This document shows positions 6,981 through 23,721 of a DNA stretch of 64,000 bases, in pieces. This stretch comes from Mesotoga prima MesG1.Ag.4.2 (GTDB lineage Bacteria > Thermotogota > Thermotogae > Petrotogales > Kosmotogaceae). Position 1 is the stretch's first letter; every line of letters begins with the position of its first letter. Below the pieces are notes generated by a model. That model worked only from the letters and a program-made list of their open reading frames with translations. It was not told the origin of the DNA and made no database searches. The stretch lies in the NCBI RefSeq assembly GCF_000147715.2, contig NC_017934.1, positions 744,001 to 808,000 on the forward strand, written 5' to 3'. Made by a program: the position numbers and the translations under genes.

Positions 6981-8183
6981 ATGCCGGAATTCCGTTATGA
7001 AGTTATAAACATCAAGGGAAAGCCCGAGAAAGGCAAGCTTTCTGCCAATTCTAAACTTGAGGCCCTCCAGATTCTTTCGAGCAGGGGATTTATTGTCAGC
7101 TCGATCAAACAGTCATCGACGACACGCAATTATACGAAGGCCTCTCTATTTCCTGCTTCTCAGAAGGAAGTCAGTATCTTCTCCAGACAGCTTGCAACGA
7201 TGGTTTCTTCCGGTGTTAGGATAAGAGACTCGCTGCAAGTGCTTTCGACTCAAGTTCTTTTTTCAAGAAGATTCAGGAAGATAATCTCCCGTGTTGTTCT
7301 TGATATCGAGGGCGGTATGAGTTTTAGCGAATCGCTTGAGAAGACGGGCGTGTTTGAGCCATTGTTTACCAATCTCGTAAAAGCAGGCGAGGCGGGTGGT
7401 GTTCTCGACGAGTCTCTCGAAAGGGTTGCAGATTTCTATGAGGGGATGGTTGAGCTTCAGAATCAGGTAAAATCGGCGATGGCTTATCCTCTATTCATGA
7501 TGGTTTTCGCGGTGGGAATAGTGGGGATGATCTCCTTCTTCATCCTCCCAAATTTGATAAGTGCTTTTGGAGGAAATTACGAGCCTGAAGGAACAATGGC
7601 TATTCTTCTTAAGATGAACGACATCTTGAAAAATCATTGGCCAATTCTTCTTGTCCTGCTTTTAGCATTGTCAATAGGGGGCTTCTTCTTCTTCAAGAGT
7701 AAGTACGGCAACATTGTCAAGGAGACTCTAGGCAAATTGATTCCTCCGGTCAGAAACCTAAGAAACATGACGGCTATGGAGAGATTCACACGGACGACGG
7801 CTGTTCTTGTAGCAAGCGGTGTGGATCTTCCTACAGTTCTGGAACTTGCAGGAGAGGTTTCTCAAAGCCCTAGAGTTATGAAAGCCGTTGGCAATGCGAT
7901 AGTCAGTATAAAGGGAGGGGAAAGCATCAACGCCGCTCTTGAGAGGCAAAAGGTCTTCCCTCCAATCGTGGTTAGCATGGTTGCAACTGGCGAAGAAACT
8001 GGAAAACTTGACGAAGTCATGTTTAAAGTGGCAAACTTCTATCACATGCAAGTCCAGAATGCACTTAAGAAACTTGTTTCGCTCGTCGAGCCAATAATGA
8101 TATTATTTATTGGGGGATTTATTGGTTTCCTGGCAATAACGATTTATGGTGCTGTATTTGCAATGGAGCAAAGCATTGGATGA
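6981..8183 (+). CDS. Type II secretion/type IV pilus inner-membrane platform protein (GspF/PilC)
   Basis: Two GspF domains (about residues 65-190 and 265-390), each ending in the family pattern seen at VKAGEAGGVLDESLERVADFY and VATGEETGKLDEVMFKVANFY. Three membrane segments are visible at about 170-190, 220-238 and 367-390. Such proteins form the cytoplasmic-membrane platform on which pilin-like subunits are assembled by a secretion ATPase. It starts an apparent secretion cluster running to the giant secretin, and its stop overlaps the next gene by 4 nt. No ATPase gene (PilB/GspE) is next to it. Confidence 0.93.
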   Translation: MPEFRYEVINIKGKPEKGKLSANSKLEALQILSSRGFIVSSIKQSSTTRNYTKASLFPASQKEVSIFSRQLATMVSSGVRIRDSLQVLSTQVLFSRRFRKIISRVVLDIEGGMSFSESLEKTGVFEPLFTNLVKAGEAGGVLDESLERVADFYEGMVELQNQVKSAMAYPLFMMVFAVGIVGMISFFILPNLISAFGGNYEPEGTMAILLKMNDILKNHWPILLVLLLALSIGGFFFFKSKYGNIVKETLGKLIPPVRNLRNMTAMERFTRTTAVLVASGVDLPTVLELAGEVSQSPRVMKAVGNAIVSIKGGESINAALERQKVFPPIVVSMVATGEETGKLDEVMFKVANFYHMQVQNALKKLVSLVEPIMILFIGGFIGFLAITIYGAVFAMEQSIG

Positions 8184-8560
8184 GTTTTACCGAACTATTG
8201 TGCTGTCTGGTCGTGGTCTCTCTGTGTATCAGCGGCGTGGTACTTGTGTCATCTGACATCATAGCTAGTTTGAAAATTGTTCTAAGCAAAACTGCTCTTG
8301 ATTCGTTTATTGAAAGCCAGCGTCTCGAAGCAGTTGTTCGTTCGAGGCCCGTTGATGTATTCTATGATTTCAGATCAAGAAGAGTATCATCCACAACTGG
8401 GATGGTATTTGAAGACTGTCTCTGGGAGAACCCTGAAAACTTCAGGATTCGTTTTAATGGGGATGGTTCTATAGCTATACTTAGCGGGTCGACAACATTG
8501 AACTTTGCTGATGGCAGTGTTTTGACAATCCAGCCGGTCACGGGGAAAGTCAGTTATTGA
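8180..8560 (+). CDS. Degenerate pseudopilin-like protein (GspH-like), uncertain
   Basis: A 126-residue protein with one N-terminal hydrophobic helix (about residues 3-28) beginning SFTELLCCLVVVSL, followed by a small soluble beta-rich domain. The layout and position right after GspF/PilC resemble a pseudopilin, but the signature is poor: only Met-Ser precedes the Phe, there is no Gly at -1, and the Glu is at position 3 of the helix rather than 5. Whether a prepilin peptidase processes it is doubtful. It overlaps gspF by 4 nt. The class is inferred from context and topology, not from a clear family match. Confidence 0.6.
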   Translation: MSFTELLCCLVVVSLCISGVVLVSSDIIASLKIVLSKTALDSFIESQRLEAVVRSRPVDVFYDFRSRRVSSTTGMVFEDCLWENPENFRIRFNGDGSIAILSGSTTLNFADGSVLTIQPVTGKVSY

Positions 8561-8576
8561 GACTTGGGGGTAAATT

Positions 8577-9614
8577 ATGTTTCAAAGTATGATTACTGCC
8601 GTTAATTCAGACGAGGGTTATACGGAAATCGTCAGGGCTGTCGTTGAAGGTCGTTATTTAAAGCCCGTTTTTTCTGTACTTAAGCTGGGTTCGGATTCGC
8701 TTGAAGAAGCATCACGAGTATTCGAGGAAAACAATTCTCTTCCTGCCGACGAGATTTTTGTGACTGCCTTCCACCCAAAAGATGTTGTTTTTCAGCATCT
8801 CGAAGTTCCACGGGTCAAATCAGTAAAGAATCTGGTAAGTGTAGCTAGCTTCAAGGCAGCATCTCAGTTTTCTCTACCGCCCGACGAAGTCAATGTTGCC
8901 TGCTTGAACTCATTGTCTTCACTTCGAACGGGTCTTGTCCCGGCCTTTATTATCACTAAGAAGAGAGCTCTGTACGAATTCATTGGAGAACTGACGGGAA
9001 AGAACTTCCCTGAACCTAACATAGTTGATGTGAAACCCTTTTCGATTTTCAAAATTGCTCAGACCAGCGTCTTTGAAGGGAATAATATCGTTTTTATCGT
9101 TGATAAGAGCTACTCGCTTCTATTGACACTAAGAGGAGAGGAAATTGTAGGCTTGAATTACATCAATGACGGGTTTGATGAAGTGGCGAGCGACTTCAAA
9201 GAAGATAACTCTCTGTCTCCAAACACTAATATGCAACGAGAGTTTCTTATAGGCTCCAAAGCCTATTATGACTCTTTGATTGAAGAAGCGTCGGAAAGAC
9301 TCGAGAGTATGATATCGTATCAGTTGAGAATGTACCTCACAAACACTCTGTCTAATTCTCCCAATACATCTGCAGCCGACGAATCACTCTTCAACAGGTT
9401 TTTTGTTGCAGGTCAGTCAAGCCTTTCGACAGCTGTTTATTCAAGAGCCTTTCAGCAAATCCTGGGCACTGAGACTGAGGTAGCGAGCATGCCTCTTAAG
9501 ATGAAGGAGACAAGCGGTATAACATATACATCGGCAGGACTACTCATGAGAGGTGGTGAGTTACTTGGTCGACGTAAACTTGTATTCAAGGAAGAGGCGG
9601 GTCTCAAGACTTAA
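8577..9614 (+). CDS. PilM/GspL-like cytoplasmic assembly protein
   Basis: A soluble 345-residue protein without membrane segments. The stretch RFFVAGQSSLSTAVYSRAF, followed by EVASMPLKM near the C-terminus, resembles the end of PilM/GspL actin-like folds, where a glycine loop precedes the last subdomain. In type IV pilus systems PilM binds the cytoplasmic tail of PilN and links the platform to the rest of the machine. The next genes have the topology of PilN and PilO, which supports the call. No clear ATP-binding signature is seen, so nucleotide binding is open. Confidence 0.72.
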   Translation: MFQSMITAVNSDEGYTEIVRAVVEGRYLKPVFSVLKLGSDSLEEASRVFEENNSLPADEIFVTAFHPKDVVFQHLEVPRVKSVKNLVSVASFKAASQFSLPPDEVNVACLNSLSSLRTGLVPAFIITKKRALYEFIGELTGKNFPEPNIVDVKPFSIFKIAQTSVFEGNNIVFIVDKSYSLLLTLRGEEIVGLNYINDGFDEVASDFKEDNSLSPNTNMQREFLIGSKAYYDSLIEEASERLESMISYQLRMYLTNTLSNSPNTSAADESLFNRFFVAGQSSLSTAVYSRAFQQILGTETEVASMPLKMKETSGITYTSAGLLMRGGELLGRRKLVFKEEAGLKT

Positions 9615-10137
9615 GTACTCTCTGATAGTTCTGCTGATAATTATCTTGCTGATTTTTGGGTCGCGTTTCTTTGTGACCCAGGCTTTCGAAATCAGATTGA
9701 GACAGGTTTCAAGAATGAAAGGGTACTTGTTTGACAATACCGGGACTTATTTGACAGGGAATCTGAAAGAAGATATAGACATGATGTATGAAAAGAAGCA
9801 GGAGTACATCGCGATAAGAAATAAACTAAGCAGACAGGTAAATGATCTCCGTAAACATGTTGATTTGAAGTCAGTTGAAATGGATGTGTTCAGGACAATA
9901 GAGGCCTATCTTGAGGACGAGAACGCAATGAAAACAATTGCCTCCAGAATACAGTTCGAAAGCGGGGTAGGAAACTCTTTCTACTATCTCATTTTTGAAG
10001 GAAAAGAGATGTTTTTCCCGACACCGCATACGACTCCAACGCTTCTCGCAAGACCAAGCGTCAGGGGTAATTTGGATTTTGCCGAGCTGTACTCTCTTCA
10101 GCTAGTTGATCTTGAGGTAGGTGACCTCAATGAATGA
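9553..10137 (+). CDS. PilN-like inner-membrane assembly protein
   Basis: The topology is a short cytoplasmic N-terminus containing VDVNLYSRKRR, one membrane helix (about residues 24-42) and a periplasmic coiled-coil plus globular part. PilN proteins start with a short INLL-type motif that binds PilM; LVDVNLYS is a plausible degenerate version. The gene overlaps the PilM-like gene by up to 62 nt. The start is uncertain: GTG codons at 9553/9556, or TTG 9565, which has a GAGGTG-type ribosome site about 9 nt upstream and would give a protein starting MVDVNLYS. It overlaps the next gene by 8 nt. Confidence 0.7.
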   Translation: MVSYLVDVNLYSRKRRVSRLKYSLIVLLIIILLIFGSRFFVTQAFEIRLRQVSRMKGYLFDNTGTYLTGNLKEDIDMMYEKKQEYIAIRNKLSRQVNDLRKHVDLKSVEMDVFRTIEAYLEDENAMKTIASRIQFESGVGNSFYYLIFEGKEMFFPTPHTTPTLLARPSVRGNLDFAELYSLQLVDLEVGDLNE

Positions 10138-10726
10138 GAAGAACGGATTCAACTTCGAAGAAATGAAAGCACCCGCAGGAGCAGAGCCTTTTGAGGGTAG
10201 CGATTCGTTTTTTATCCACAGAGACTACGCAAATAAGCTGAATAGAAGGCTCAGTTTTCTTGACAAGAAAGGAATAAACTCAAAACTTGCCTTCTGGTCA
10301 CTGATTGCCTTGACTGTTTTGGGTTTTCTCTTCTTGGTTATTCTGTACTCCTACAGCACTTTTGAGAACACTTCTCTGCTCATTGATGAAGTAAATGGTT
10401 TAGAAAGCGCCTATCTTGAAGTTCAGCTCCTTTCAAGGGTGAGAAACGAGGCACTTGGTTCAATGAGCACTAGAAGCTATTTGAATGATCTTGAAGAGAA
10501 AATTCCGATAGGGTCGAAGCCCGGCGACTACAATGGGATAATTGCTTCGGGAAACTCAAGGGATATTCTCGATCTCGTAGAAATGATTGTAAATGAACCC
10601 AGAATACTTGTCAAAAAGCTAGAGCTAAGATCTAATCTTGGGTTTCCGATTCTCCCGGAGTCCAACATTCCCTCGAATCTCTCTCTTGAACTGAAAATCG
10701 ATCTAAACGTGACTGGAATCTTTTAG
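10130..10726 (+). CDS. PilO-like inner-membrane assembly protein
   Basis: A cytoplasmic N-terminus of about 50 residues, one membrane helix (about 53-74) and a periplasmic domain starting with a coiled coil. Gene order after PilM and PilN, plus this topology, points to PilO (or GspM), which pairs with PilN in the periplasm. The 50-residue cytoplasmic head is longer than usual for PilO. ATG 10130 is preferred over GTG 10121 because GAGGTAGG ends 8 nt upstream. Sequence identity to the family is weak by eye, so the call rests mainly on context. Confidence 0.66.
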   Translation: MNEKNGFNFEEMKAPAGAEPFEGSDSFFIHRDYANKLNRRLSFLDKKGINSKLAFWSLIALTVLGFLFLVILYSYSTFENTSLLIDEVNGLESAYLEVQLLSRVRNEALGSMSTRSYLNDLEEKIPIGSKPGDYNGIIASGNSRDILDLVEMIVNEPRILVKKLELRSNLGFPILPESNIPSNLSLELKIDLNVTGIF

Positions 10727-10740
10727 GGGGAGCTGAATCT

Positions 10741-11181
10741 ATGGAGAAGTACGTTATGGTAATAGTTATCGCGATTTTCCTTATCGTAACAGGTGGGGTT
10801 ATTCTGACATTTCTCCTCGAACCCGTTGAAATTGCAGACGTAGCGGCCAGCAGGATCAAGATTGATCCTATAAACACTGATAGAGTTGTTAGTAGCGTAA
10901 GTTTGGAGAATCATTTTCTTCCTCTGTATGCCAGTCCTTCTGAAGTAATCAGTTCCATGCTAGAAGTCGGTGAGGAAGCTGAAGGTGTAAGGTATGTCGC
11001 ATACTATAGATTAAACAAGATTGATTATGCTGTTCTTGAATCTGGGCAGTCTCAAGTTACTGTAAGAGTGGGAGAACAGGTTGCTCCCTCCTACATCGTG
11101 TATGGGATTACGGAATTTGCTGTATTGCTGAACGACACTAGCACAAACAGCTTTGTTGTTGTCAAGTATTTCAGGTCGTAA
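10741..11181 (+). CDS. Single-span periplasmic protein, PilP/GspC-like by position
   Basis: A 146-residue protein with an N-terminal membrane helix (about residues 5-27) and a beta-rich periplasmic domain ending near FVVVKYFRS. In comparable clusters the gene between PilO and the secretin encodes PilP or GspC, which bridges the inner-membrane platform to the secretin N-domains. No PilP lipobox is present, so GspC-like anchoring fits better. The ribosome site GGGGGAG is well placed. The gene ends 28 nt before the chosen secretin start. Function is inferred from place and topology. Confidence 0.58.
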   Translation: MEKYVMVIVIAIFLIVTGGVILTFLLEPVEIADVAASRIKIDPINTDRVVSSVSLENHFLPLYASPSEVISSMLEVGEEAEGVRYVAYYRLNKIDYAVLESGQSQVTVRVGEQVAPSYIVYGITEFAVLLNDTSTNSFVVVKYFRS

Positions 11182-11209: not shown

Positions 11210-14200
11210 GTGAGAAGAATAGCGGTCTTATTCCTGGTTCTGGGTTTCTTCTGTATCGGTTTCTCTAATCAACTGAATTCAGTCATACCTTCTATGGATG
11301 CTGAATCAGTGACGGTGACTCTGATTTTTATGAACGAAGTCACCGATTATAACATTCAATCCAATCCTTCCAAGACAATATATTCTCTGGCGCTGGACGG
11401 AGTAAGCGGCCGTGATATGAATCTGCCGCTAAGAATGGGACCCGTTGAGGGTCTCTGGACCCGCCAGGACCCGAAGCGACTTTCAGTGAATGTCGCCTTG
11501 CTGATTCCTGCAATCGACGAGCCGCAAGTCACAATCAGGGAGAACATCGTAACGCTCAGATTTTTCAGATCTAACATTGACGTTGACATCGAGAAGTTCA
11601 CAACATACGGAATGACTTTGTCAACTGCCATGACCTATCTCTTTTCCGAGGAAATGCTAGACCTTTCCTACATAATATCTCCAAGTGTGAGAGATGAGGA
11701 AGTTGTTGTCGGTTTTTCACTTGCGATGCCAGAGGACATCCTCAGAAACATTCTCACTTCTCTTGGAGACAGGGTCGCTTACTCCTATTTGACAGATGGA
11801 ACCTTCTACCTCGGGACACCTGAAGAAGTACAGAGTCTGGTAAACGCGTTCTGGAAAACTTATATTGGTGTGGAGTTCAAACTGGAGGGTGAAACCGTTT
11901 CTGAGCAGATTGAGAGATTGAGAAAGACTCTTCCCGTGAACAGTTTTATTGAGTATCTCCCAAATGAAGCTTCTCTCATGGTTTTCGGAGATCTCCAAAC
12001 CCATATGAGTCTTTCTGCTGCTCTTACAACTAATACGGTTACGAAGGAATTTACCATTCCGTGGGAGATAACAGATGTGGAAGACACTCCTCTCAACTCT
12101 TATTTAGACCTTGCAAGGAAATTGAATGCAACGCTTTTTTCTGAGAGTCTGACAATAATAAGCATTCCTGAATTTAACAAACTTATTCTTTCCGGGAATG
12201 ATTCTCAGGTAAATGCTCTTTATGAATATCTAGAGCTGTATAGAGAAAATGTTACATCTGAGGATCTAGATTCAAGTAAAGCGAGAAAAACAATAACGCT
12301 ACCGGACAACTTCTTTCTCATCGAAGATGTGCTGAAACTAGGCAGTGTTGGCGGGTCCGGCTTGACAGAAGGCAATACTCTTGTTGGCGCCATACTGAGT
12401 ATTCTTCAAAGTTACGCCCCTTATGAAGAGATAGCTGTAGATAGAGCATTTGAGCCTATCGGAAAGGTAACATTCGAGTTGCCAAACTATCTAGTTCCAG
12501 TTCTAGAAAAGACTGTGGATTCTTTTTCGGGAATATCTGCGGAGGTTTCCTACACGATAGTGAATTATCACTTAACAATAGAGGAATCTGTGAGATCTCA
12601 GGTGGAGCGAATAACTGGAGCACTGATCGAGCCCTTGGGCGAAAGGAAGGGCTACATTCTTAAAGGCTCCAGGAGTTCAATAGGAACAGCAGAATATCTC
12701 CTCTCACTTTTCACTGGGATCACTTTCGAAGATTACTCCAGCACATATCTTGAACTAAAAGCTAATGATTCCTTTGAGGAAGTCTCGGCCTTTCTCAGAA
12801 CCTTCTACTCGGCACAAGGTCTTGTCCAAGATGAGTACACAGTTGAGCAGATTGCAGATAGATTGGTCTTCATGTATGCCCCTTCGGAAATAATGGAAAA
12901 GGCTGTTCTTGAACTGGAACAGCACGAAAGGCAGATATACAGGGTAACAAAAGAATCCATTCTTGAAATCGCTCCCGAAATCTATTCTTCAGGCCTGGGC
13001 GAGTTACTCCAGACGATTCTCGTGGAGAATGAAACGGCAGACTTCATTCAGTCGGCAGGATTGTTGGTAGTCAGTGCTTACCCGGAGAGACTCGCCGAGA
13101 TAGAAACCATTATCGAAGAGAGAATACCTAGAATCAAAGAAATGCTTGAGAATAGAATGTCTAGTCAGGAGAACAGGTTATCCCTGCAGATCGAAGCTAT
13201 TCCAGGTTGGGATATTGAGAAATTCAGGATGTATCTCAACGACTTTCTTGGAACTGAGCTTTTTTCAGAGATTACTCTCACCACATCGGGAAGCGGCTAC
13301 ATAGTCATTGCAGCGGAGTCTGTTTTGGAAGCAATTTCCGCTGAAGCTGAAAAACTTAGAGGATTTGAAGAACCTTCTTACAGACTGGAAACTTCCATTC
13401 CGTCACTTGCTCAGTTCGAGCTTCTTTTGCAGAGGCTTGGAATAGCCGTAACAATAGTTCCTGTCGACAACCAGTTCATGATTGTAGGTTCAAAAGTCAA
13501 TGTCGAAGAGGCTTCCAGGCTTGTAAGACAGCTTAGCACCGGACTACCCGTTCAAGGGGAAGTTTCGGAAAGTGAGACTGTTTACGAGTATAGATTTATA
13601 GACATTCCTTATTCGGAAGTGCAGGGAATAAGTGATCTTCTGGACAAACTAAACCTGTCAGTTGAGTTCGTCAACACGCCATCTGGAGTCGCGATTGTAG
13701 CCACTGAAGATAGGCTGAAAGAAGCGATGGTCGTGATTGATTCGATTCTTTCTAGAATCGAGACAATCGAGACGGGGCCTAGAAGTTACAGTTTGATAGA
13801 TATAGAGCCATCCCTAGTCGATAGCCTTGACGAGATACTTTCGCTGTTAGGGTACGAAATAGATCTTGTAGAGTCACCGGCGGGAGTCATAGGGATTGGT
13901 GTAGAGGCGCAGCTCGCAAAGGCAAAGAAGATCGTCGAAGAGATTATGAATAAGGAGGCATCAATACTTCCTCAGCAGGGAGACATTGAAAGCGAGAAAT
14001 CATATCTGATCATTTTCTCGAAGCCTGAAGTGGAAATTGCCTCGCTCAACTCAATGATAGATGTTTTCGGTATGGATCTTGTTATCACGCCAATCTATGA
14101 CAAGATTGTCGTTGTTGGAGATAGCGAGGATTTAAAGCTTTTCAACGGATTGTACGATCAGATACTTACTACCGAGAGCGTTGAAGGAGCCTTTGTATCA

Positions 14201-17200
14201 AGGGAGATTGCAGGGGTTCCTGGATGGGATTCCGAACGTCTTCTATCTTATCTGGGCGTAGTTCTTGGACCAGAAAAGACTGCAAATATCTCCTTCGTTC
14301 AGACGGCCAAAGGATACATAATCAGTTGCCCCGAGTCGATCATTGAAAGAGTAGAGAACGAATTCGAGAGGCTGAGGGGAATCGAGAGTCCATCCTATTC
14401 GATAGAAAGCAAGATGCCTCAGATTGATGAAATCAATTCACTTCTTTCGAGGCTCGGCATCATTGTCGATATTCTGGAAGTCGACGATTATTTTGTCGTT
14501 GTTGGATCGGAATACAATGTTGCACGAGCAAAAGAACTCATATCGAAATTAGTTGAGGCGATCGGAGAGGACCCGGAATCTAAAGAAACTGTATTTGAGC
14601 TTTCTACAATCGAAAGCAAGGATTCCCAGGTTTTTGGTGAGATCTTCTCAAGCATTGGGATCGATGTTAGGTTGCTTGAATCCCCTTCCGGGGTCCTTGT
14701 AGTAGGTAGAGAAGAAGAGGTTTCGAAAGCAATAGAAACTTCCAAATCGATTCTCCAGAAGAGACCTTCTACGGCTTTAGCACAGGCTGTGTTTGAATTC
14801 GTGCCGGCAGCTTTCGAGGAAATAGGAGATTACTCCTTAATACTGGAGAAAATGGGCATCGATGCGGAGTTGCTTCCATCTCCGTCGGGTGTCATCGTAG
14901 TTGGATCGTCTGAAGAGGTTTCTAAAGCTAGAACGGCAGTTCAGACAATTCATGATCAGAAACAGGCATTCGATAGTACTGAAGATTCCAAGAACGTGTC
15001 TACCTTCGTCCGAAGAGTTGCAGGCTGGAGCGACGAGGTATTCACCAGTTATCTCAGCGACTTCTTGGGCGAAGATTTATATTCTCGAGTCTCTATTGCT
15101 CCAACAGTAAGTGGTTACATCGCCGTCGGACCCATTGATCTTCTTGAAACTATTGAAGCCGAGGTTGCGCGACTGAACGAAATTCAGGACCCCTACTTCA
15201 TTGTGAAGCAGGGATTGACTCCTCTCGATCAGCTGGAACTGCTTATTGAAGCGCTAGGAATAAGAGTCGAAATTATCCCCGTTGAAGACAAATACTTGAT
15301 CGTCGGAAATCATGACAGTGTTGTTCAAACGGGTGAGTTGATTGATCAGCTCATCGATGCTATATACCCAGAGGGAAAGCCCACAGAGCAGACTGCAACT
15401 TCGAAGACATTCATTTTCCTCCCGATCGAACCAGAAGATATTGCGCCACTCGAGACGGTTATGGAGAAACTCGGTATTATCTCCGAATTTGTTCAGATCT
15501 CAAATGGAGTCATTGCGGTAGGGTCGACGGAAGAGCTTTCAAGATCTCTTGATGTTGTCGAATCGGTGATGGCCCATTCTGAAAGTGTAACGGCTGAACT
15601 GGAAATGGATTACAGGTTTGTTGATGTTCTGAAGGACTCCATAGATCAGCTTCTGCCGATAATTGAACGCTTGAGTATTGGAGTTGAACTGCTTGACACT
15701 CCTGCCGGAGTAGTTGCGATCGGAGCCGAACAAGATTTGGATCGTGCGGAAGAGTTGATCAAAGCAATCAACTCTAGAGATACGAAAGAAGTTCCTCTTC
15801 AAGAGAAATATGAGAGTTATCTTCTTCTGCCTCTTTCAGCCGGGATTACAGTTGAATCACTGCAACCTGCGCTAGAACTTCTAGCTTACAGAGTATTTGC
15901 GGTAAGCGTTGCAGACAAACTGATTGCAATAGGCAGCGAAGAAGACCTACTGAAGTTCAAGGCACTTTACATGCAGCTTCAATCTCAGGAAGTAGACAGG
16001 GAAGAACGGATTTCTCTGGAAATAAAAATGATACCTGGCTGGGATCTTACTCGTTTGAATGAATATCTGAGACTCTTTCTTGGAGCCGATGAGTTTGAGA
16101 GGATTTCCATTGTTTCATCTTCCACAGGATTCGTTGCTCTTACTCCAAGAGCTCTGGCAGACGTTGTGGAGGCTGAAATATCAAGGCTGAGAGAATTCGA
16201 AGACCCTGCATTTACAGTGATTGAAAGAGTGCCTCCTGTAGACGATCTGGAAGGGCTGCTGGTTAGACTGGGAGTACTCGTTGATCTGGTAGAAATGGGT
16301 AGCTCGACGATCGTTATCGGGTCGGGGGAAGACGTAAGACAAACCGGAATAATAATAGAACAGCTTATGGAAAGTGTGAAATTCGATGTTGCTTCACCGG
16401 AAGTAATGGAATACAGCGTTCTAGACATCGCTCAAGACGACATCGAAAGCTTCAGTGCAATTCTTGAAAGCCTCACGATAGATGTTTCCCTTATTTCATC
16501 GCCCTCTGGAGCCATAGCGATCGGCTCACATCAAGCAGTGGCTAGAGCAGAGACGGTTGTTGAAGATATTCTCAGCAGGAGAACGACTCCGCAGGTTTAT
16601 GAACCGACATACGCCTTCACTGGGATACAAAGCGCAGATATTGCCATTTATCAGACGATTCTGGACAAACTTGACTCGGGAGTGGAGCTTCTGCCATCCG
16701 CTACTGGAGTTATCATGATCGGTGAAGGAGACAAGGTGCAAGAAGCGGTCAAGACAGTCAATGCGATTCTTGAGAGAGAAGCGTTGTTTGACGAATCAGA
16801 AGGTCAACCAGACAGGGTCTCAAACGTTGCAGCCATCGTCCCTGGTTGGAACGATGAGAAATATGCAAGCTACTTTGCTGACTTTCTCGGCAAGGACGAC
16901 TTCTCTAGAATAACCATTACACCGTCTTCCAGTGGTTACATTGTTGTCGGTCCCCAGGAAGTTGTATCAAAACTGGTCAAAGAGGCTTCGAGGCTGGCTG
17001 GAATTGAGGATCCCTTCTTTGTTATCGAGAATTCGCTTCCCGCAGTCGAGCAAATGGATTCACTTCTTGAACGGCTTGGGTTGAAGGTAACGATTCTGCC
17101 TGTTGAAGACAAATTCCTCGTAGTTGGCAAGAAAGAGAGCGTAGAAGAGGCTGTTGAGCTAATAAGACTTCTGAGTAACGGACTGGAAGCGCCATCAAGT

Positions 17201-20200
17201 TCAAGAAAATATGATTTCCAAATAATGCCTGCAAGCGAGGGAGCATTTGATACTATACGGCAAGTATTAGCAGAGCTGAAAATTGAAGCAACTGCGCTTA
17301 GCTTTGGAGACAACGTCATCCTTGTCGGCTATGATGAGGACCTCGAAAGTGCCGCGAAGGTCGTGAATTCTATTAATGAACGAACGGTAACTCTCGAAAC
17401 GGATAAAGAACTGAAATATTCTTTTACGGAAATACCGAATGATAGAATAAATGAGTTTTCAGCCATTCTCGATAGTCTTGAGATGGATGTGCAGCTACTT
17501 TCCTCGCCATCCGGAGTAGTATTGGTGGGGACCGAAGAAGAGTCGGCTAAAGCTAATGATGTCATACTATCAGTGCTTTCTAAGGCCGAAGAGGATGAGA
17601 TGGTTGAATCAAGGTTCTTCAATAACCCTGCCGGCTGGGAAGATGGAAAACTTGTCACTTACCTGAGAAGTTTCCTCGGAGAGAAGGATTGGGCAAAAAT
17701 CAGTGTGACTCCGGTTCAGTCCGGTTATCTAATAGTGGGTCCAACTGCCATATTGGACAGAATTCACTCTGAAACGGTCAGGTTATCAGGACTGGAGAAG
17801 CCACACTACGAAATAGTTGATACTGTTCCCTCGATTCAGAATCTTCAGGGCATGCTCGAAAAGATGGGACTTGCGGTAACTGTAGTTATCGTAGATGGGA
17901 GATCGATGGTCATTGGACCGGAAGATGACGTTATTCAGACTGTGAGGATTTTCAGCGAGCTTTCCGAGGGAGTTGTTTTGCCCAAGGGAGAGGAACCCGA
18001 TGTATTTAACTTCGTAGAAATCCCCACCGAAGAAGTCGAAAGCTTTAGAGCAATATTCTCGAGATTAGGAATACGCGTTGATCTACTGAATGCCCCCACG
18101 GGCGTAATCGCTGTAGGTCAGGGTGAAGAAGTAGCTAAGGCCGTTGACACTATAACTTCTATACTTTCAAGGAGAGAGGTTCAGGTGGTTGATGGTGAGA
18201 AGAGCTACCTGGTAGTTGAAGTCGCGGACGGATTCGACCTGGCTGCAGCACAGTCAATTCTTTCGGCATTCAATATAAACGTCTTCCCGCTTTCGGTTGC
18301 AGGGAAGCTAGTAGTAATCGGGAGCGAGAACGAGATCATGAGGTTCGCAGAAATAAGAGAAGATATAATCAGCGAACATAGAGTAACGGTGATTGTTCCC
18401 CGCGAGGTCACTCTCGAGGAGCTTACAGGGATTGTAGATACTCTGGAAATGGAGATTTCCGTTCTAGAGATCAGGGACAGCTTCGTTGTCTACGGGAAAG
18501 AAGGAGACATCGAGCGGGTCAGGGCTATTCTTTCCGAGCTTGTTTCCGAAAAACCTTCTGAGGAAGTTCGCCATTCGAGGATATTCACCGGAATCTCCCT
18601 TAGCACCGACTTCCTTAATAAGCTCCTCTCCAGTATGAATTCCTCGCTCACAATTTACGGAGAGGGAGACAAATTAGTTGCTGTAGGTACCGAAGATGAC
18701 ATTGAGATGTTTGAAGGTCTCTTGAAGGAGATTGGATCTGCCCCGTCTACTGAAGAACTGACGGCGCAGTTCTATCCCAGAATTGAAGGATGGACTGGAG
18801 AGACACTCTCCGGATTCTTTGAGGCTATGAATCTGGCGGTTCAGGTATTTCACGAAAACAGTCAGGGATACCTGTTGATTGGACCGGAATCTGAGCTTTC
18901 CAAGCTGCCCGATATCATGGAGGGCCTCGAACTCAAGACGAAGAAGCTTACAACTCTCTACCCTGTTCCTTCAGGTATGACATTCGAAGAGCTGAGAGAG
19001 ATACTGATTTCGGCCGGGTTCAATCTTTCCTATACAAAACTTGGACAGAGTATGTCGATTTCCGGTCTTGAAGAAGACGTTGAGCTTGCAGTTGCCCTGC
19101 TGGACGAAGTGATAAGAAGCAATCTTGGCAAGGGGATCTCTTATAGGCTAATCAAGCTTCCTGCAGATTTGACACTGGAAAAGTTTGAGAAAATCATGGG
19201 AGATATGGCGCTAGGCATATCCTCTGTTCAGGTAGATGGAGAAGTTATGCTTATTGGTTCCGACAGTGATTTGAGAACTGCCAATGAAATAGTTGAGTAT
19301 CTCACTCCGGAAGGCACTCCTATTGAGGATGAAGTAGTCTACTCTGTGATTCCTATCAGTGAAGAGCTTTCAATGACGGAGATCGCAGCTCTGGTCGAAA
19401 AGCTTTCGCTTAATGTAGAGATCCTTCCAGTCGGTGAAGACCTATTCGTGATTGGAACTCAAAGAAACGTAGATAGCTTCAGGGAGTTAGTCAATTCCAT
19501 TTCGGCGACCCTCGGGATAGAGGAAGTCCAAAGCCCCGAATACACAATCGTTGAGTTCGTTGAAGAGATCTCACTGGATCAGTTCAGAGAATTGCTAGCC
19601 TCCCTCAATATCTCGGTAAAGATTGTGGAGGTTGGAGATTATCTCGTTTTCATAGGTTCAGGTGAGGACAATTTGGAAGCCGCTGAGCTTTTCTCCAGAT
19701 TTGAGACGAAGGATACAGAACCGGAATCTGAGGAGATTGAGTTCGAAGCTCTTTCGTTCCCTGAGGGGTTTGATATAAACTCTCTCACAACTGTTTTCGA
19801 AAAGCTCGATCTAAGAGTCGACATAAACGCCGTTAGCAACGTCCTCCTGATAATCGGAACGAGAGAATCGATAGAAAACGCAGTTACAATAATAGAAAAA
19901 CTCGTTCAGGTATCGACGGGAGATTCAGGTGAAGGGAACGTCTTCAAAGTCCTTGAATCAAAGGAGGGAGTTTCTTCCGAGCTTTTGAGTCAGCTCTTCA
20001 GATTGATCGGGGTGGAGGTAGAGATTCTGGAAAGCGAAACGGTCTTTGTCTTCGTCGGAAGCGAAGCCGATGTAGAAATGGCCGTAGATGTGTATGATTC
20101 TCTTGGAGAGAGCGCCGGTGTAGACGAAGGACCGCTCTCTTACACAATAACGATTCTCCCGAAGAATCTTACTCCCAGCCAGCTCCAAACCGCCTTCACA

Positions 20201-22897
20201 TCGATTCAGATACCTGTAGGTGTAATCGAGGCAGGTGACTATGCAATAATAGTCGGGACGAAAGCGTCACTTGCTAGAGCGCAAGAGCTGGTTTCCTCTC
20301 TTCGTATAGGAATCGATGCGAGCGGGACTTCTGCCGACGGTTCCGTCTCTTACATAACCTTTGCGCTGCCCGAGGGCACGGAGATCAACCAGTTCGAATC
20401 AATTGCCGGTTTGATGGAGCTTAAACTGAAATTCGAGCCTGTTGGAGAGAGAGTCTTTATGATCGGAACGGCTCAAGACATAGGTGAATTCGAACAGGTT
20501 CTCAGTGGTTTGGTTAGCGAAAAATCGGGAATCGTCAACGAGTTCAGATTTGTGAAGAAACTATCCGGTGTCGATGCAGAGACACTGAAGACTTATTTGT
20601 TAGCAAGAGAGATTGAGCTTTCGGGGGTTTTTGATGTGAGTGGAGGATACCTCCTGATAGGAAGCGCAGACTCATTGGACGGTGCACAAAGCATAATCGA
20701 CTACTTGCTGGATAACCAGCAGGTCCATTTCGCTTACATCGATCTACCTGCAAGCATAACTCCTGAGATCCTCCAGGCGATCGCTAATGACCTTCTACTT
20801 GAGATCTCATTTGCCCAGATAACGCCAACGAGGTATTTATTTGTCGGAAATATGGAGGATGTAGAAAGTTTCAGGGACATACTTGCCAAAGCGGTGACAG
20901 AGGATACTAAATTCCTGTCTTATTCAATTGTAGTCGTCGGGCAAGCCTTTAATGACGATTTGTCAAGAGTGTATGGACCTGAAGGCAGTCAAAGGTCTGG
21001 AATGGACGATCTGAAAGACGCACTGGAGAGCATTGGAGTATCGGTTTTCATAGGCAAATTCGACAATAGGCTTCTAGTGGTTGGAGAAAGCGTACATGTC
21101 GATCTTGCAAGACAGTTGATAACGGAGTTGAATCAGACCACTGGTAGCACTGAAGGAACTGAAAAGGTGAGGATCGAAGATCTTCCACCCGTCAGCGGTT
21201 GGAGCATAGAACAGATAACACAGTTCCTTGAGGCTGCAGAGATTCAACTGAGATCGATTATCGAATACTCTGGAAGGCTTATCGGAATAGGAACGCAGGT
21301 GGGTCTGGAAAATGCGAGAGAGGCTTTGAGTATACTTGCAGTTGATTCGAAGAGAGAGTCGGTGAGAGTCGAAAAGAGCCTTGTTTCAGATAATCAGCTT
21401 CAGGAGATAATCTCAAAGCTCAGTCTTGAAGTTGATTACATCGACCTCGACAGACAGTGGTTACTTATAGGCGATCCCGAGTCGCTGATGATAATTACTA
21501 GGACGATTGAAGAGGCTGCCGCCGATAGAGAGATCTCGAGATATATTACCGATCTGACCGTCAATCCGCAAGAACTTGCAGATCTTTTGAGAGAGTCAAT
21601 CGAAGGAATCACCGTTCAGACCTTCGCAGATCTCCAGATGCTGCTTATCAAGTCAAAGAGTTCGGCCCTGCTAGACGCAGCCGAAGACATGGTAAGAGAC
21701 GTTCAGGAGTCTAGAAAGGCGATCGATCCTCTCGAGAAAGGCGTTGTTGTTAAAGATTCGATGGTGAGCATAAGGGTGACTGATCAAGATCTGGAAGCAC
21801 TTCTGAGAACTGTTTCTGAAAAACTGGGAATATCGCTTCTTTTCGTTGACAAAATCGTCGAGAATATCACTATGTCGATAGAAGACCTCAGCTGGGATAA
21901 ACTGGTCAAGGTGATCAATGCCACGAAGCCAGTCGAAATAGTCAGAATCGATGATATTTATGCTGTAACCAAGAAGGAGCAGAAAGCCGGAGAGGAACCG
22001 ACGGATGTCGAGCTCGTCTACCGCGTCTATCATAATGTCGAAGAGTTAACGAGACTCATTGAGTTCTATGGGGGAGAAGTCCTTTCCGATCCCGTAAACG
22101 GTTATATAGTCGTCAGAGGGCTTGCAAAGTCTAGAGTGGACAACATCTTCGATGAAATCGGTTCAGCCCTTTCACAGCCGAAGAAGCAGGTGAGAATAGA
22201 AACAAGGCTTGTTGATGAGTCCCTGATTGACGAAATACAGCGAGAGATCAAAACTTCTATCGGAATCAACGCTCCCGAGATCCTCATCGAAAACGGTTCC
22301 GTCGATCTTGATTTTGGCATTATCGATTATCTAGATATCACACAGCTGATCGATGATCTTGTGAATACCGGAACTGTGAAGATAGAGGCTGATCTCAGCG
22401 ATAGAGACAACGATTCTGACCTTATATCAAGTCCTTCTATAGTTTCGATGAGTGGTGAAGAAGCCAAGATTCACATTGGAGATACGATTCCTTACCTCGT
22501 GCGCACAATTGAGTATGTCGAAGGTAACCCAGTGGAGATAGAGACTATTGAATACCTGAATACAGGGGTGGAGCTGAGAATAACTCCTACGGTAAATGAT
22601 GATGGGAAGATACTCCTTGATCTTTTCATTAAGGTAAGCGAACCGGAGAAATATGTCGACGGGACAAGAACTCTTTATGGTGAGAAGACTAGAGAGGCAA
22701 ACAGCAGGCTGATTATTTCAGACGGAAACACACTGACAATTGGAGGTCTTGTTGCAAATAAGGATACCGTTACGGTCAACAAGATGCCTTTTCTTAGTGA
22801 TCTACCTTTTATTGGAAAGCTGTTCACCACCGAGAACAAGACCTCTGATAAGAGAGAACTGGTTATCTTCATCACAGCGGAGGTGGTTGAGCCGTGA
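11210..22897 (+). CDS. Giant modular secretin (outer-membrane secretion channel), about 3,895 residues
   Basis: The C-terminus is a standard secretin: an STN/N0-like domain (about 3515-3585), an N1 domain (about 3600-3680) and the beta-barrel domain (about 3735-3895) with LISSPSIVSMSGEEAKIHIG, LTIGGLVA and the signature KMPFLSDLPFIGKLF. In front lie a signal peptide (MRRIAVLFLVLGFFCIGFS), an AMIN-like N-terminal segment and some 2,800 residues of about 43 repeated ~70-residue modules, each ending in a pattern like SPSGVIVVGSSEEV followed by a helix. This resembles secretin N1 (KH-like) domains. Typical secretins have roughly 400-800 residues. GTG 11210 is chosen because GGGGTGAT lies 4 nt upstream and a signal peptide follows. 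The frame is uninterrupted over 11.7 kb. The downstream MEMO gene overlaps by 4 nt. Confidence 0.93.
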   Translation: MRRIAVLFLVLGFFCIGFSNQLNSVIPSMDAESVTVTLIFMNEVTDYNIQSNPSKTIYSLALDGVSGRDMNLPLRMGPVEGLWTRQDPKRLSVNVALLIPAIDEPQVTIRENIVTLRFFRSNIDVDIEKFTTYGMTLSTAMTYLFSEEMLDLSYIISPSVRDEEVVVGFSLAMPEDILRNILTSLGDRVAYSYLTDGTFYLGTPEEVQSLVNAFWKTYIGVEFKLEGETVSEQIERLRKTLPVNSFIEYLPNEASLMVFGDLQTHMSLSAALTTNTVTKEFTIPWEITDVEDTPLNSYLDLARKLNATLFSESLTIISIPEFNKLILSGNDSQVNALYEYLELYRENVTSEDLDSSKARKTITLPDNFFLIEDVLKLGSVGGSGLTEGNTLVGAILSILQSYAPYEEIAVDRAFEPIGKVTFELPNYLVPVLEKTVDSFSGISAEVSYTIVNYHLTIEESVRSQVERITGALIEPLGERKGYILKGSRSSIGTAEYLLSLFTGITFEDYSSTYLELKANDSFEEVSAFLRTFYSAQGLVQDEYTVEQIADRLVFMYAPSEIMEKAVLELEQHERQIYRVTKESILEIAPEIYSSGLGELLQTILVENETADFIQSAGLLVVSAYPERLAEIETIIEERIPRIKEMLENRMSSQENRLSLQIEAIPGWDIEKFRMYLNDFLGTELFSEITLTTSGSGYIVIAAESVLEAISAEAEKLRGFEEPSYRLETSIPSLAQFELLLQRLGIAVTIVPVDNQFMIVGSKVNVEEASRLVRQLSTGLPVQGEVSESETVYEYRFIDIPYSEVQGISDLLDKLNLSVEFVNTPSGVAIVATEDRLKEAMVVIDSILSRIETIETGPRSYSLIDIEPSLVDSLDEILSLLGYEIDLVESPAGVIGIGVEAQLAKAKKIVEEIMNKEASILPQQGDIESEKSYLIIFSKPEVEIASLNSMIDVFGMDLVITPIYDKIVVVGDSEDLKLFNGLYDQILTTESVEGAFVSREIAGVPGWDSERLLSYLGVVLGPEKTANISFVQTAKGYIISCPESIIERVENEFERLRGIESPSYSIESKMPQIDEINSLLSRLGIIVDILEVDDYFVVVGSEYNVARAKELISKLVEAIGEDPESKETVFELSTIESKDSQVFGEIFSSIGIDVRLLESPSGVLVVGREEEVSKAIETSKSILQKRPSTALAQAVFEFVPAAFEEIGDYSLILEKMGIDAELLPSPSGVIVVGSSEEVSKARTAVQTIHDQKQAFDSTEDSKNVSTFVRRVAGWSDEVFTSYLSDFLGEDLYSRVSIAPTVSGYIAVGPIDLLETIEAEVARLNEIQDPYFIVKQGLTPLDQLELLIEALGIRVEIIPVEDKYLIVGNHDSVVQTGELIDQLIDAIYPEGKPTEQTATSKTFIFLPIEPEDIAPLETVMEKLGIISEFVQISNGVIAVGSTEELSRSLDVVESVMAHSESVTAELEMDYRFVDVLKDSIDQLLPIIERLSIGVELLDTPAGVVAIGAEQDLDRAEELIKAINSRDTKEVPLQEKYESYLLLPLSAGITVESLQPALELLAYRVFAVSVADKLIAIGSEEDLLKFKALYMQLQSQEVDREERISLEIKMIPGWDLTRLNEYLRLFLGADEFERISIVSSSTGFVALTPRALADVVEAEISRLREFEDPAFTVIERVPPVDDLEGLLVRLGVLVDLVEMGSSTIVIGSGEDVRQTGIIIEQLMESVKFDVASPEVMEYSVLDIAQDDIESFSAILESLTIDVSLISSPSGAIAIGSHQAVARAETVVEDILSRRTTPQVYEPTYAFTGIQSADIAIYQTILDKLDSGVELLPSATGVIMIGEGDKVQEAVKTVNAILEREALFDESEGQPDRVSNVAAIVPGWNDEKYASYFADFLGKDDFSRITITPSSSGYIVVGPQEVVSKLVKEASRLAGIEDPFFVIENSLPAVEQMDSLLERLGLKVTILPVEDKFLVVGKKESVEEAVELIRLLSNGLEAPSSSRKYDFQIMPASEGAFDTIRQVLAELKIEATALSFGDNVILVGYDEDLESAAKVVNSINERTVTLETDKELKYSFTEIPNDRINEFSAILDSLEMDVQLLSSPSGVVLVGTEEESAKANDVILSVLSKAEEDEMVESRFFNNPAGWEDGKLVTYLRSFLGEKDWAKISVTPVQSGYLIVGPTAILDRIHSETVRLSGLEKPHYEIVDTVPSIQNLQGMLEKMGLAVTVVIVDGRSMVIGPEDDVIQTVRIFSELSEGVVLPKGEEPDVFNFVEIPTEEVESFRAIFSRLGIRVDLLNAPTGVIAVGQGEEVAKAVDTITSILSRREVQVVDGEKSYLVVEVADGFDLAAAQSILSAFNINVFPLSVAGKLVVIGSENEIMRFAEIREDIISEHRVTVIVPREVTLEELTGIVDTLEMEISVLEIRDSFVVYGKEGDIERVRAILSELVSEKPSEEVRHSRIFTGISLSTDFLNKLLSSMNSSLTIYGEGDKLVAVGTEDDIEMFEGLLKEIGSAPSTEELTAQFYPRIEGWTGETLSGFFEAMNLAVQVFHENSQGYLLIGPESELSKLPDIMEGLELKTKKLTTLYPVPSGMTFEELREILISAGFNLSYTKLGQSMSISGLEEDVELAVALLDEVIRSNLGKGISYRLIKLPADLTLEKFEKIMGDMALGISSVQVDGEVMLIGSDSDLRTANEIVEYLTPEGTPIEDEVVYSVIPISEELSMTEIAALVEKLSLNVEILPVGEDLFVIGTQRNVDSFRELVNSISATLGIEEVQSPEYTIVEFVEEISLDQFRELLASLNISVKIVEVGDYLVFIGSGEDNLEAAELFSRFETKDTEPESEEIEFEALSFPEGFDINSLTTVFEKLDLRVDINAVSNVLLIIGTRESIENAVTIIEKLVQVSTGDSGEGNVFKVLESKEGVSSELLSQLFRLIGVEVEILESETVFVFVGSEADVEMAVDVYDSLGESAGVDEGPLSYTITILPKNLTPSQLQTAFTSIQIPVGVIEAGDYAIIVGTKASLARAQELVSSLRIGIDASGTSADGSVSYITFALPEGTEINQFESIAGLMELKLKFEPVGERVFMIGTAQDIGEFEQVLSGLVSEKSGIVNEFRFVKKLSGVDAETLKTYLLAREIELSGVFDVSGGYLLIGSADSLDGAQSIIDYLLDNQQVHFAYIDLPASITPEILQAIANDLLLEISFAQITPTRYLFVGNMEDVESFRDILAKAVTEDTKFLSYSIVVVGQAFNDDLSRVYGPEGSQRSGMDDLKDALESIGVSVFIGKFDNRLLVVGESVHVDLARQLITELNQTTGSTEGTEKVRIEDLPPVSGWSIEQITQFLEAAEIQLRSIIEYSGRLIGIGTQVGLENAREALSILAVDSKRESVRVEKSLVSDNQLQEIISKLSLEVDYIDLDRQWLLIGDPESLMIITRTIEEAAADREISRYITDLTVNPQELADLLRESIEGITVQTFADLQMLLIKSKSSALLDAAEDMVRDVQESRKAIDPLEKGVVVKDSMVSIRVTDQDLEALLRTVSEKLGISLLFVDKIVENITMSIEDLSWDKLVKVINATKPVEIVRIDDIYAVTKKEQKAGEEPTDVELVYRVYHNVEELTRLIEFYGGEVLSDPVNGYIVVRGLAKSRVDNIFDEIGSALSQPKKQVRIETRLVDESLIDEIQREIKTSIGINAPEILIENGSVDLDFGIIDYLDITQLIDDLVNTGTVKIEADLSDRDNDSDLISSPSIVSMSGEEAKIHIGDTIPYLVRTIEYVEGNPVEIETIEYLNTGVELRITPTVNDDGKILLDLFIKVSEPEKYVDGTRTLYGEKTREANSRLIISDGNTLTIGGLVANKDTVTVNKMPFLSDLPFIGKLFTTENKTSDKRELVIFITAEVVEP
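13190..21720 (+). repeat. Protein-level tandem array of N1-like modules in the giant secretin
   Basis: Gly-Trp module starts are seen near 13203 (IPGWDIEKF), 14220 (VPGWDSERL), 15022 (VAGWSDEVF), 16034 (IPGWDLTRL), 16842 (VPGWNDEKY), 17624 (PAGWEDGKL), 18784 (IEGWTGETL) and 21193 (VSGWSIEQI), with a Trp-less copy near 20562 (LSGVDAETL). Between them lie ~70-residue modules starting with an aromatic/hydrophobic strand and ending in VIVVG-like strands plus a helix. By hand I count about 43 modules. They are diverged at the DNA level, so the array is old. Confidence 0.85.
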
Positions 22898-23721
22898 TAA
22901 GGAGACCCGTTGTTAGCGGTAAGTTCTACGCTGATAACGAAGAGGAACTCAAAAGTCAGATAAGGAACTGCTTTTTCCATCCTGTTGGACCGGGAAGTCT
23001 TCCACATGGCTGGGAGAAGAATGAAGGACCTATCGGTCTGATTGTGCCGCACGCCGGTTATATGGCTAGTGGTCCGGTAGCCGCATGGTCATACTGGAGG
23101 GCGGGCGCGCTCGTTAAACCATCAACGGTCTTGATTGTTGGACCAAACCACACGGGCTTGGGTACGAAGCTGTCGTTGTGGCTCGAAGGGGCTTGGGAAA
23201 CGCCTCTGGGCAGCGTCGAGATAGATCACGAGTTTGGCAGATCACTGATGGCTGAGTCAAATGGAATGATAATGCCAGATACTTCTGCTCATTTATATGA
23301 GCACTCTATTGAGGTCCAGCTACCATTTCTGCAGTTTCTTTACTCGGATTTCAAGATTGTTCCTTTGATAATGACGGATCAGAGAGTAGAAGTTGCTTTG
23401 AGTCTGTCGGAGATCATAAAGAAAGAGTTGAGTAGGAGGAATGATGTTTTGGTGATTGCCTCTTCTGATTTGAACCACTACGAGGCCCATGAGGTAACGA
23501 TGGAAAAGGACAATGAGCTTTTAAGCCTAATTTTGGATGGGAAGTACAGAGAGTCCTACGAACTCTCGCAAGAAAAGAGGATAACGGCTTGTGGGCTTGG
23601 ACCAATTGTAGCAGTGAGAAATTCTTTTGAATCGATGGAAGTGCTTTGTAGTACAACGAGCGGTGAGGTGATGGGAGACAGGTACAGGACCGTGGGATAT
23701 GTTGCGGCCCTGCTCAGCTAA
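22894..23721 (+). CDS. amrB: MEMO family protein (AmmeMemoRadiSam system protein B)
   Basis: A 275-residue protein of the MEMO/aromatic-dioxygenase-like fold. The metal-site segments are visible: VPHAGYMASGPVA, GPNHTG, EHSIEVQLPFL and SSDLNHYE, plus the cysteine in TACGLGP that matches the metal-proximal Cys in MEMO proteins. Bacterial MEMO often pairs with an AMMECR1 protein and a radical-SAM enzyme; neither is adjacent here. It starts at GTG 22894, overlapping the secretin stop by 4 nt, so it is probably translated with the secretin, although no role in secretion is established. Its biochemical function is unknown. Confidence 0.92.
   Translation: MIRRPVVSGKFYADNEEELKSQIRNCFFHPVGPGSLPHGWEKNEGPIGLIVPHAGYMASGPVAAWSYWRAGALVKPSTVLIVGPNHTGLGTKLSLWLEGAWETPLGSVEIDHEFGRSLMAESNGMIMPDTSAHLYEHSIEVQLPFLQFLYSDFKIVPLIMTDQRVEVALSLSEIIKKELSRRNDVLVIASSDLNHYEAHEVTMEKDNELLSLILDGKYRESYELSQEKRITACGLGPIVAVRNSFESMEVLCSTTSGEVMGDRYRTVGYVAALLS

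Follow-up and report, generated by a model that had tools for sequence, protein, structure and literature searches.

The giant secretin gene of Mesotoga prima MesG1.Ag.4.2 encodes an extreme form of PilQ that is real and conserved and that represents neither a new family nor an artifact. It lies in the window (the whole 64,000-nucleotide stretch of DNA that was analyzed, G000:C1:744001-808000, from a main contig of 2,974,229 bases). Across 36 Thermotogota genomes, longer secretins go with longer coiled coils in the SLH/Omp-alpha spacer proteins of the envelope, also inside families, and this relationship is new here. The explanation that we favor, and hold to be reasonably probable, is that PilQ was expanded in the Kosmotogaceae and that its module array would form a long, multi-ring periplasmic conduit for the pilus, adapted to a deep envelope. 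Any ranking of the protein as the longest refers only to the 103 Thermotogota genomes surveyed and to the Thermus PilQ protein described in the literature consulted.

Reading frame and domain organization

A preliminary description of the window had proposed an uninterrupted 11.7-kb frame with a signal peptide at one end and a secretin barrel at the other, and this was confirmed. The frame at 11210-22897 opens with GTG and runs for 3,895 codons with no internal stop, and each of the other five frames has 118 to 298 stops over the same interval; a putative ribosome-binding site (GGTGA) lies directly ahead of the GTG at normal spacing, the signal peptide is recognizable by inspection, and the barrel matched PF00263 at residues 3732 to 3894 (E = 4e-41; 140.9 bits, with a curated cut-off of 27.5). 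Purifying selection is evident along the frame: dN was 0.029 and dS was 0.30 between G029 and G027 (3,900 codons each), and dN was 0.13 to 0.15, with dS saturated or nearly so, between the window gene and its counterparts in G027, G028, and G029. In these dN/dS comparisons within Mesotoga, the barrel was the best-conserved part of the protein and the array was less conserved.

The order of domains from the N to the C terminus is a signal peptide, an AMIN domain, an N0-like domain, about six diverged modules, 43 regular modules, and an N0-N1-secretin unit (Table 1). That the protein is a secretin, as first proposed, is borne out by the PF00263 match and by fold matches to solved PilQ and GspD structures. 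The NCBIfam PilQ model (TIGR02515) scored 137.6 bits over the C-terminal part only, below its 284-bit cut-off, and the GspD model scored equally (137.4 bits), likewise under its own cut-off; the name PilQ was therefore assigned from the operon, the AMIN domain, and the lack of any other secretin in the genome.

Table 1. Features of the pilus operon and of the secretin encoded by its last gene (positions in the window)
Feature	Position	Strand	Basis
pilC, inner-membrane platform, T2SSF	6981..8183	+	PF00482, E 4e-59
Small pilin-like protein	8180..8560	+	By inspection
PilM-like	8577..9614	+	Sole PDB match Thermus PilM 2ych, E 0.0095
PilN-like	9553..10137	+	By position and size
PilO-like	10121..10726	+	By position and size
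PilP-like	10741..11181	+	By position and size
PilQ-type secretin gene	11210..22897	+	3,895 aa, 430 kDa, pI 4.3
Signal peptide VRRIAVLFLVLGFFCIGFS	11210..11269	+	By inspection, residues 1-20
AMIN-like beta-sandwich	11267..11569	+	AlphaFold strands; Foldseek 4aqz; aligned with T. maritima-type orthologue
First N0/STN-like domain	11603..11818	+	AlphaFold; alignment with T. maritima-type orthologue; STN matches in relatives
About six diverged beta-alpha-beta-beta-alpha modules	11819..13165	+	AlphaFold secondary structure; two partly profile-detected
Array of 42 N1-like modules, ~67 aa each	13166..21541	+	Profile
Array part with higher-order 4-5-module units	13166..18391	+	'GW' starts 13166, 14177, 14981, 15986, 16790, 17591
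43rd regular module	21533..21715	+	Structure model only
Second N0-like domain	21758..21976	+	Structure model; HofQ alignment
N1 domain adjoining barrel	22013..22177	+	Profile, structure model, HofQ alignment
Secretin barrel domain	22187..22894	+	Pfam, structure model, Foldseek, HofQ alignment

AlphaFold models of residues 3161 to 3895 and 20 to 930 were built on alignments of Thermotogota orthologues. Both had a mean pLDDT of ~72 and a pTM of 0.34, at which single domains are usable and domain packing is undefined, a point that counts against the conduit reading. The models consist of strand-helix-strand-strand-helix units in file, joined by linkers of 0 to 15 residues, with about six diverged units at residues ~204 to 650 and one extra regular unit at ~3442 to 3502; the beta-alpha-beta-beta-alpha fold of secretin N-domains is thus present in the modules, according to AlphaFold and Foldseek. 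With the model of the C-terminal region, the best Foldseek matches were GspD, PulD, ExeD, and PilQ, at E values as low as 2.9e-19. For the N-terminal model, PilQ and GspD were best; crystal structures of GspD and XcpQ N-domains ranked lower, as did the B2 domain of PilQ. The N-terminal sandwich matched the PilQ B2 domain (4aqz; rmsd, 2.9; TMt, 0.58; E = 0.012), and the AMIN assignment is made by this structure match alone, with no Pfam AMIN match in the secretin. STN matches were obtained in 3 of the 12 aligned members, and STN was matched at E = 3.5e-6 in L045.

Residues 22 to 410 of E. coli HofQ, which has neither the upstream array nor the AMIN-N0 part, aligned with the last ~380 residues (profile; E = 1.7e-25). 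Because this alignment is end to end, these ~380 residues make up a small secretin that is complete in itself, with the array upstream of it. The modules had initially been taken for some 43 extra N1-like domains: their N-domain fold has held up, but not their placement as a simple insertion between N0 and the barrel, since a complete N0-N1-secretin unit follows them, and the number is right for the regular array (42 by profile and 1 by structure prediction), with a total nearer 50.

Detection and growth of the module array

The module profile, which was seeded on the 12 C-terminal modules and then iterated, gave 46 matches, 42 of them contiguous at residues 661 to 3435. The seed model by itself found 25 matches in the held-out N-terminal part (19 at E < 1e-3); as a control, 20 shuffled arrays and one reversed array together gave just 3 matches at E < 0.5, the best at 0.017. 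The profile did not find the module elsewhere among the proteins of the genome. Over the full protein, Secretin_N (PF03958) matched in scattered fashion, reaching 32.4 bits against a cut-off of 28.2 with no single stretch above it. Single modules matched this family weakly (3 of 42; best E = 0.0027), which also counts against the conduit reading; in the T. maritima-type and Kosmotoga orthologues, Secretin_N was matched at E values of 4e-16 and 1.5e-15, respectively (58 to 59 bits). Since single Mesotoga modules mostly fail Secretin_N, their assignment as N-domains rests on fold and on the orthologues. Searches of PDB sequences with the module profile returned no secretin (the matches were a designed cage, at E = 0.0012, and lower-scoring unrelated proteins), and there was no match to HofQ, so fold comparison was needed to place the modules.

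Modules 3 to 28 are arranged in units of four to five modules, each opened by a 'GW' module, with similarity peaks at lags of 4, 5, 9, and 13. This higher-order pattern fits growth of the array by duplication of single modules and of blocks of four to five modules. Judging from the DNA, the copies are old, because no direct repeat of at least 40 bases remains in the window gene. With a pI of 4.2 and a net charge of -280, the array is strongly acidic.

Operon and orthologues

The secretin gene is the last of a pilC-pilin-pilM-N-O-P-Q operon, whose M-N-O-P-Q order is that of hofMNOPQ in E. coli and recurs in Kosmotoga and partly in the T. maritima-type genome; no relevant structures were found for the PilO and PilP profiles. 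This is the only secretin of the Mesotoga genome, and many other Thermotogota have an additional secretin of ~385 to 420 residues. The genome also encodes one PilB-type (565 aa) and one PilT-type (349 aa) ATPase, both identified by family and length, together with a single prepilin peptidase; its prepilin motifs number at least six. The protein is therefore the PilQ of a type IV pilus operon and not a new family. A Memo-like gene (PF01875) at 22894-23721 overlaps the secretin stop with its start and is probably on a common transcript.

A search for homologues and module counts across the Thermotogae, suggested in the preliminary description, showed that the gene is common to the Thermotogota and variable in length. 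In four Mesotoga genomes (G000, G027, G028, and G029), the modules correspond one to one and the proteins have 3,895 to 3,908 residues; a fifth (G023) encodes 4,575 residues, with about ten more modules, in blocks. The scan of named genomes yielded three close relatives only, in Mesotoga and the Kosmotogaceae. The Kosmotoga orthologue (G019; 2,635 aa, 28 modules detected) has the same ends; it is shorter, and its modules match the Mesotoga order mainly at the two ends. The protein from G090, which we take to be T. maritima, has 1,287 residues and is a TM0088-type PilQ; this orthologue shares the AMIN and N0-like N terminus, N-type modules, the N0-N1-secretin unit, and part of the operon, but it has ~10 to 12 modules compared with ~50 in Mesotoga. 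Petrotogaceae secretins have 630 to 910 residues. No secretin match was found in 7 of the 103 Thermotogota genomes, three of which (G007, G011, and G018) have a listed completeness of 90% or more.

Secretin length and envelope spacers

In T. maritima, a 316-residue coiled coil of OmpA1 (Omp-alpha) keeps the toga ~50 nm off the cell other than where it balloons, which it does at the poles (PMC3387000). SLH proteins were searched in 48 genomes, and frames were fetched for 36; those kept as spacers had a stalk low in Pro/Gly and in aromatic residues followed by a C-terminal membrane segment. This filter was set after a first look, and it supersedes a first pass on raw frames (22 genomes; rho = 0.86). 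In the 36 Thermotogota genomes, secretin length correlated with stalk length (rho = 0.74 for the longest stalk and 0.72 for the median stalk), with the reservation that related species are not independent, draft frames were partly checked, and K. pacifica was entered as its whole broken locus. The pooled within-family rho was 0.79, a value reached in none of 5,000 within-family shuffles (permutation P = 2e-4). Family medians alone gave a rho of 0.4 to 0.45 (n = 8), which is not significant and speaks against the conduit reading. One family, f6, was an outlier with only one stalk, a short one; in g27 and in g28, one stalk was very long.

Stalk lengths were converted to distances at 0.1485 nm per coiled-coil residue, using the longest stalk and allowing 8 nm for the barrel (our own choice). 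The space per N-type domain was then 2.8 to 3.5 nm in f8, f10, f11, and four f9 genomes (half of f9) and 1.8 to 2.5 nm in f7; in f2 it was 5.4 to 6.7 nm, where domains are few and a constant platform offset weighs more. The ~2 to 3.5 nm per N-domain in most families is close to the need of one ring per domain. Mesotoga stalks of ~470 to 480 residues correspond to a gap of ~70 nm, or 1.1 to 1.2 nm per module, and Kosmotoga would have 1.2 to 1.7 nm per module if the spacer sets the gap, below the need of an N-domain ring and thus against the conduit reading. Exact proportionality between secretin and spacer length is accordingly rejected for the Kosmotogaceae (1.1 to 1.7 nm per module). At 2.5 nm per ring, ~50 rings would need at least 125 nm, an approximately twofold overshoot of the ~70-nm gap. 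The idea of the preliminary description that the protein bridges a wide periplasm therefore gains comparative support, in that secretin length tracks spacer length, but not in the form of a single straight stack in which every module makes a ring; the small space per module in Mesotoga is the main limit on that picture. No account of Mesotoga pili or of the width of the Mesotoga periplasm was found in the literature searched.

Some SLH proteins stood apart. In g27 (L104 in G069, L161 in G066, and L179 in G067), a spacer has a stalk of ~910 to 940 residues, ~137 nm if fully coiled; G066 and G067 have shorter paralogues of 300 to 410 residues beside it. The long g27 stalk occurs in three genomes without a matching secretin, a further point against the conduit reading. 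Two proteins of ~690 to 700 residues, L092 (G000:C1:2725390) and L100 (G023), have N-terminal SLH repeats and, by eye, a 5'-nucleotidase-like part, and they were left out of the spacer set.

Discussion

We postulate that the C-terminal ~380 residues form the oligomeric pore as an ordinary N0-N1-secretin unit and that the ~50 N-type modules upstream of it would extend this pore toward the inner membrane, so that the N-terminal N0-like and AMIN domains, the latter of a peptidoglycan-binding type, could contact the cell wall and the platform made by PilM/N/O/P. The modules would then most likely be stacked as N-domain rings around a pilus that extends and retracts inside them, and with this conduit the pilus machine could span the deep compartment beneath the toga. 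We have established the gene and its operon, the order and fold class of the domains, the conservation and variable length of the protein, and its covariation with spacer length; the stacking, the pilus as cargo, and the orientation we infer. For Mesotoga, a straight stack with a ring for each module is improbable unless the pili sit where the toga is distended; ~1.2 nm per module implies packing denser than one ring per layer, slack chains, or pili at distended toga.

The closest precedent, and the best-characterized long PilQ, is that of Thermus thermophilus, a protein of 757 aa with domains N0 to N5 that forms a C13 assembly of six stacked rings and extends over most of a wide periplasm (PMC5745081); its length is ~35 nm (PMC4463427). 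Like the Mesotoga protein, it is a type IV pilus PilQ of a diderm with a wide periplasm, has tandem beta-alpha-beta-beta-alpha N-domains before a C-terminal secretin domain, and has been described as exceptionally long. However, Mesotoga PilQ has ~50 N-type modules against six rings and is about five times the length, and an N0-like domain stands at each end of its array, whereas Thermus has N0 at the N terminus only.

The Thermus precedent counts in favor of the literal version of the conduit, in which each module forms its own ring and ~50 rings make a straight tube of more than 100 nm, seated where the toga is distended. The N-domain fold and short linkers of the models, the ~3 nm per domain that suits several other Thermotogota families, and toga ballooning at the poles (PMC3387000) are in keeping with such a tube, but the ~1.2 nm available per Mesotoga module does not support it, and we consider it possible at best. 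By arithmetic from 0.43 MDa per chain, a hypothetical 13- to 15-mer would come to 5 to 6 MDa. The full picture of a ~50-ring, 5- to 6-MDa conduit longer than 100 nm, which would far exceed every secretin characterized so far, with its length set by repeat copy number and coevolving with the toga spacers, is likewise held only tentatively.

Alternatively, the C-terminal N0-N1 domains, and perhaps a few modules, would form rings, and the remaining domains would be a string that tethers the pore, by way of the N-terminal AMIN-N0 part, to the cell wall and platform, with slack for the lifting of the toga. A complete N0-N1-secretin unit at one end and AMIN-N0 at the other would suit a tether, as would a module number in excess of what the spacer gap needs and an array less conserved than the barrel. 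Nevertheless, the linkers are short, and the one-to-one order and number of modules in four Mesotoga genomes are more than a slack tether would require; we judge it unlikely.

Less likely again is that the protein is mainly a pore for DNA uptake or for T2SS-like protein secretion, with modules that bind the cargo. The equal scores of the GspD and PilQ models and the KH-domain-like appearance of some modules of relatives point that way, and TM0088 is listed, without further comment, as a pilQ competence gene (PMC5637354); no discussion of the length of TM0088 was found in the literature searched. The PilM-N-O-P neighbors and the PilT-type ATPase suggest a retractable pilus instead, and the acidic array is unlike a DNA-binding surface. 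Finally, an assembly collapse or a fusion of separate genes can be dismissed: K. pacifica does provide an example of an array damaged in an assembly, but four independently sequenced Mesotoga genomes keep the frame at equal length and in the same module order, purifying selection acts throughout it, and long DNA repeats are absent. Searches of Pfam and NCBIfam, of PDB sequences, and of folds gave no match to an adhesin or filament family, the other outcome that the preliminary description had named as a refutation, and that candidate was rejected.

In K. pacifica, the pilQ locus (L055 and L037; G021:C1:1892568-1900426) is split over frames. Exact 245-base direct repeats flank a 982-base block of five modules that is open throughout in the reverse orientation, and a 1-base frame change follows the second repeat. 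Given an assembly built on 454 and Illumina data (PMC5217533), a misassembly is likely, with a real inversion as the lesser possibility.

With the conduit as the preferred reading, copying of a small module has apparently been a way to span an unusually deep envelope. The Thermotogota provide, in one phylum, a natural length series of a single trans-envelope machine, from ~4 to 60 N-type domains, against which the SLH coiled-coil spacers serve as a molecular ruler. This series makes it possible to test how the machines for pili and for secretion are fitted to the depth of the envelope and whether each N-domain of a tandem array invariably gives one ring. A tube, if one is formed, would rank with the largest channel complexes of bacteria and provide a route into the poorly known toga. 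In four other secretins (L003, L009, L023, and L048), the stretch ahead of the barrel seems to consist of repeats that resemble N0/STN rather than N1, with weak STN and GspD-N0 matches; by this resemblance, different lineages may have expanded different N-domains.
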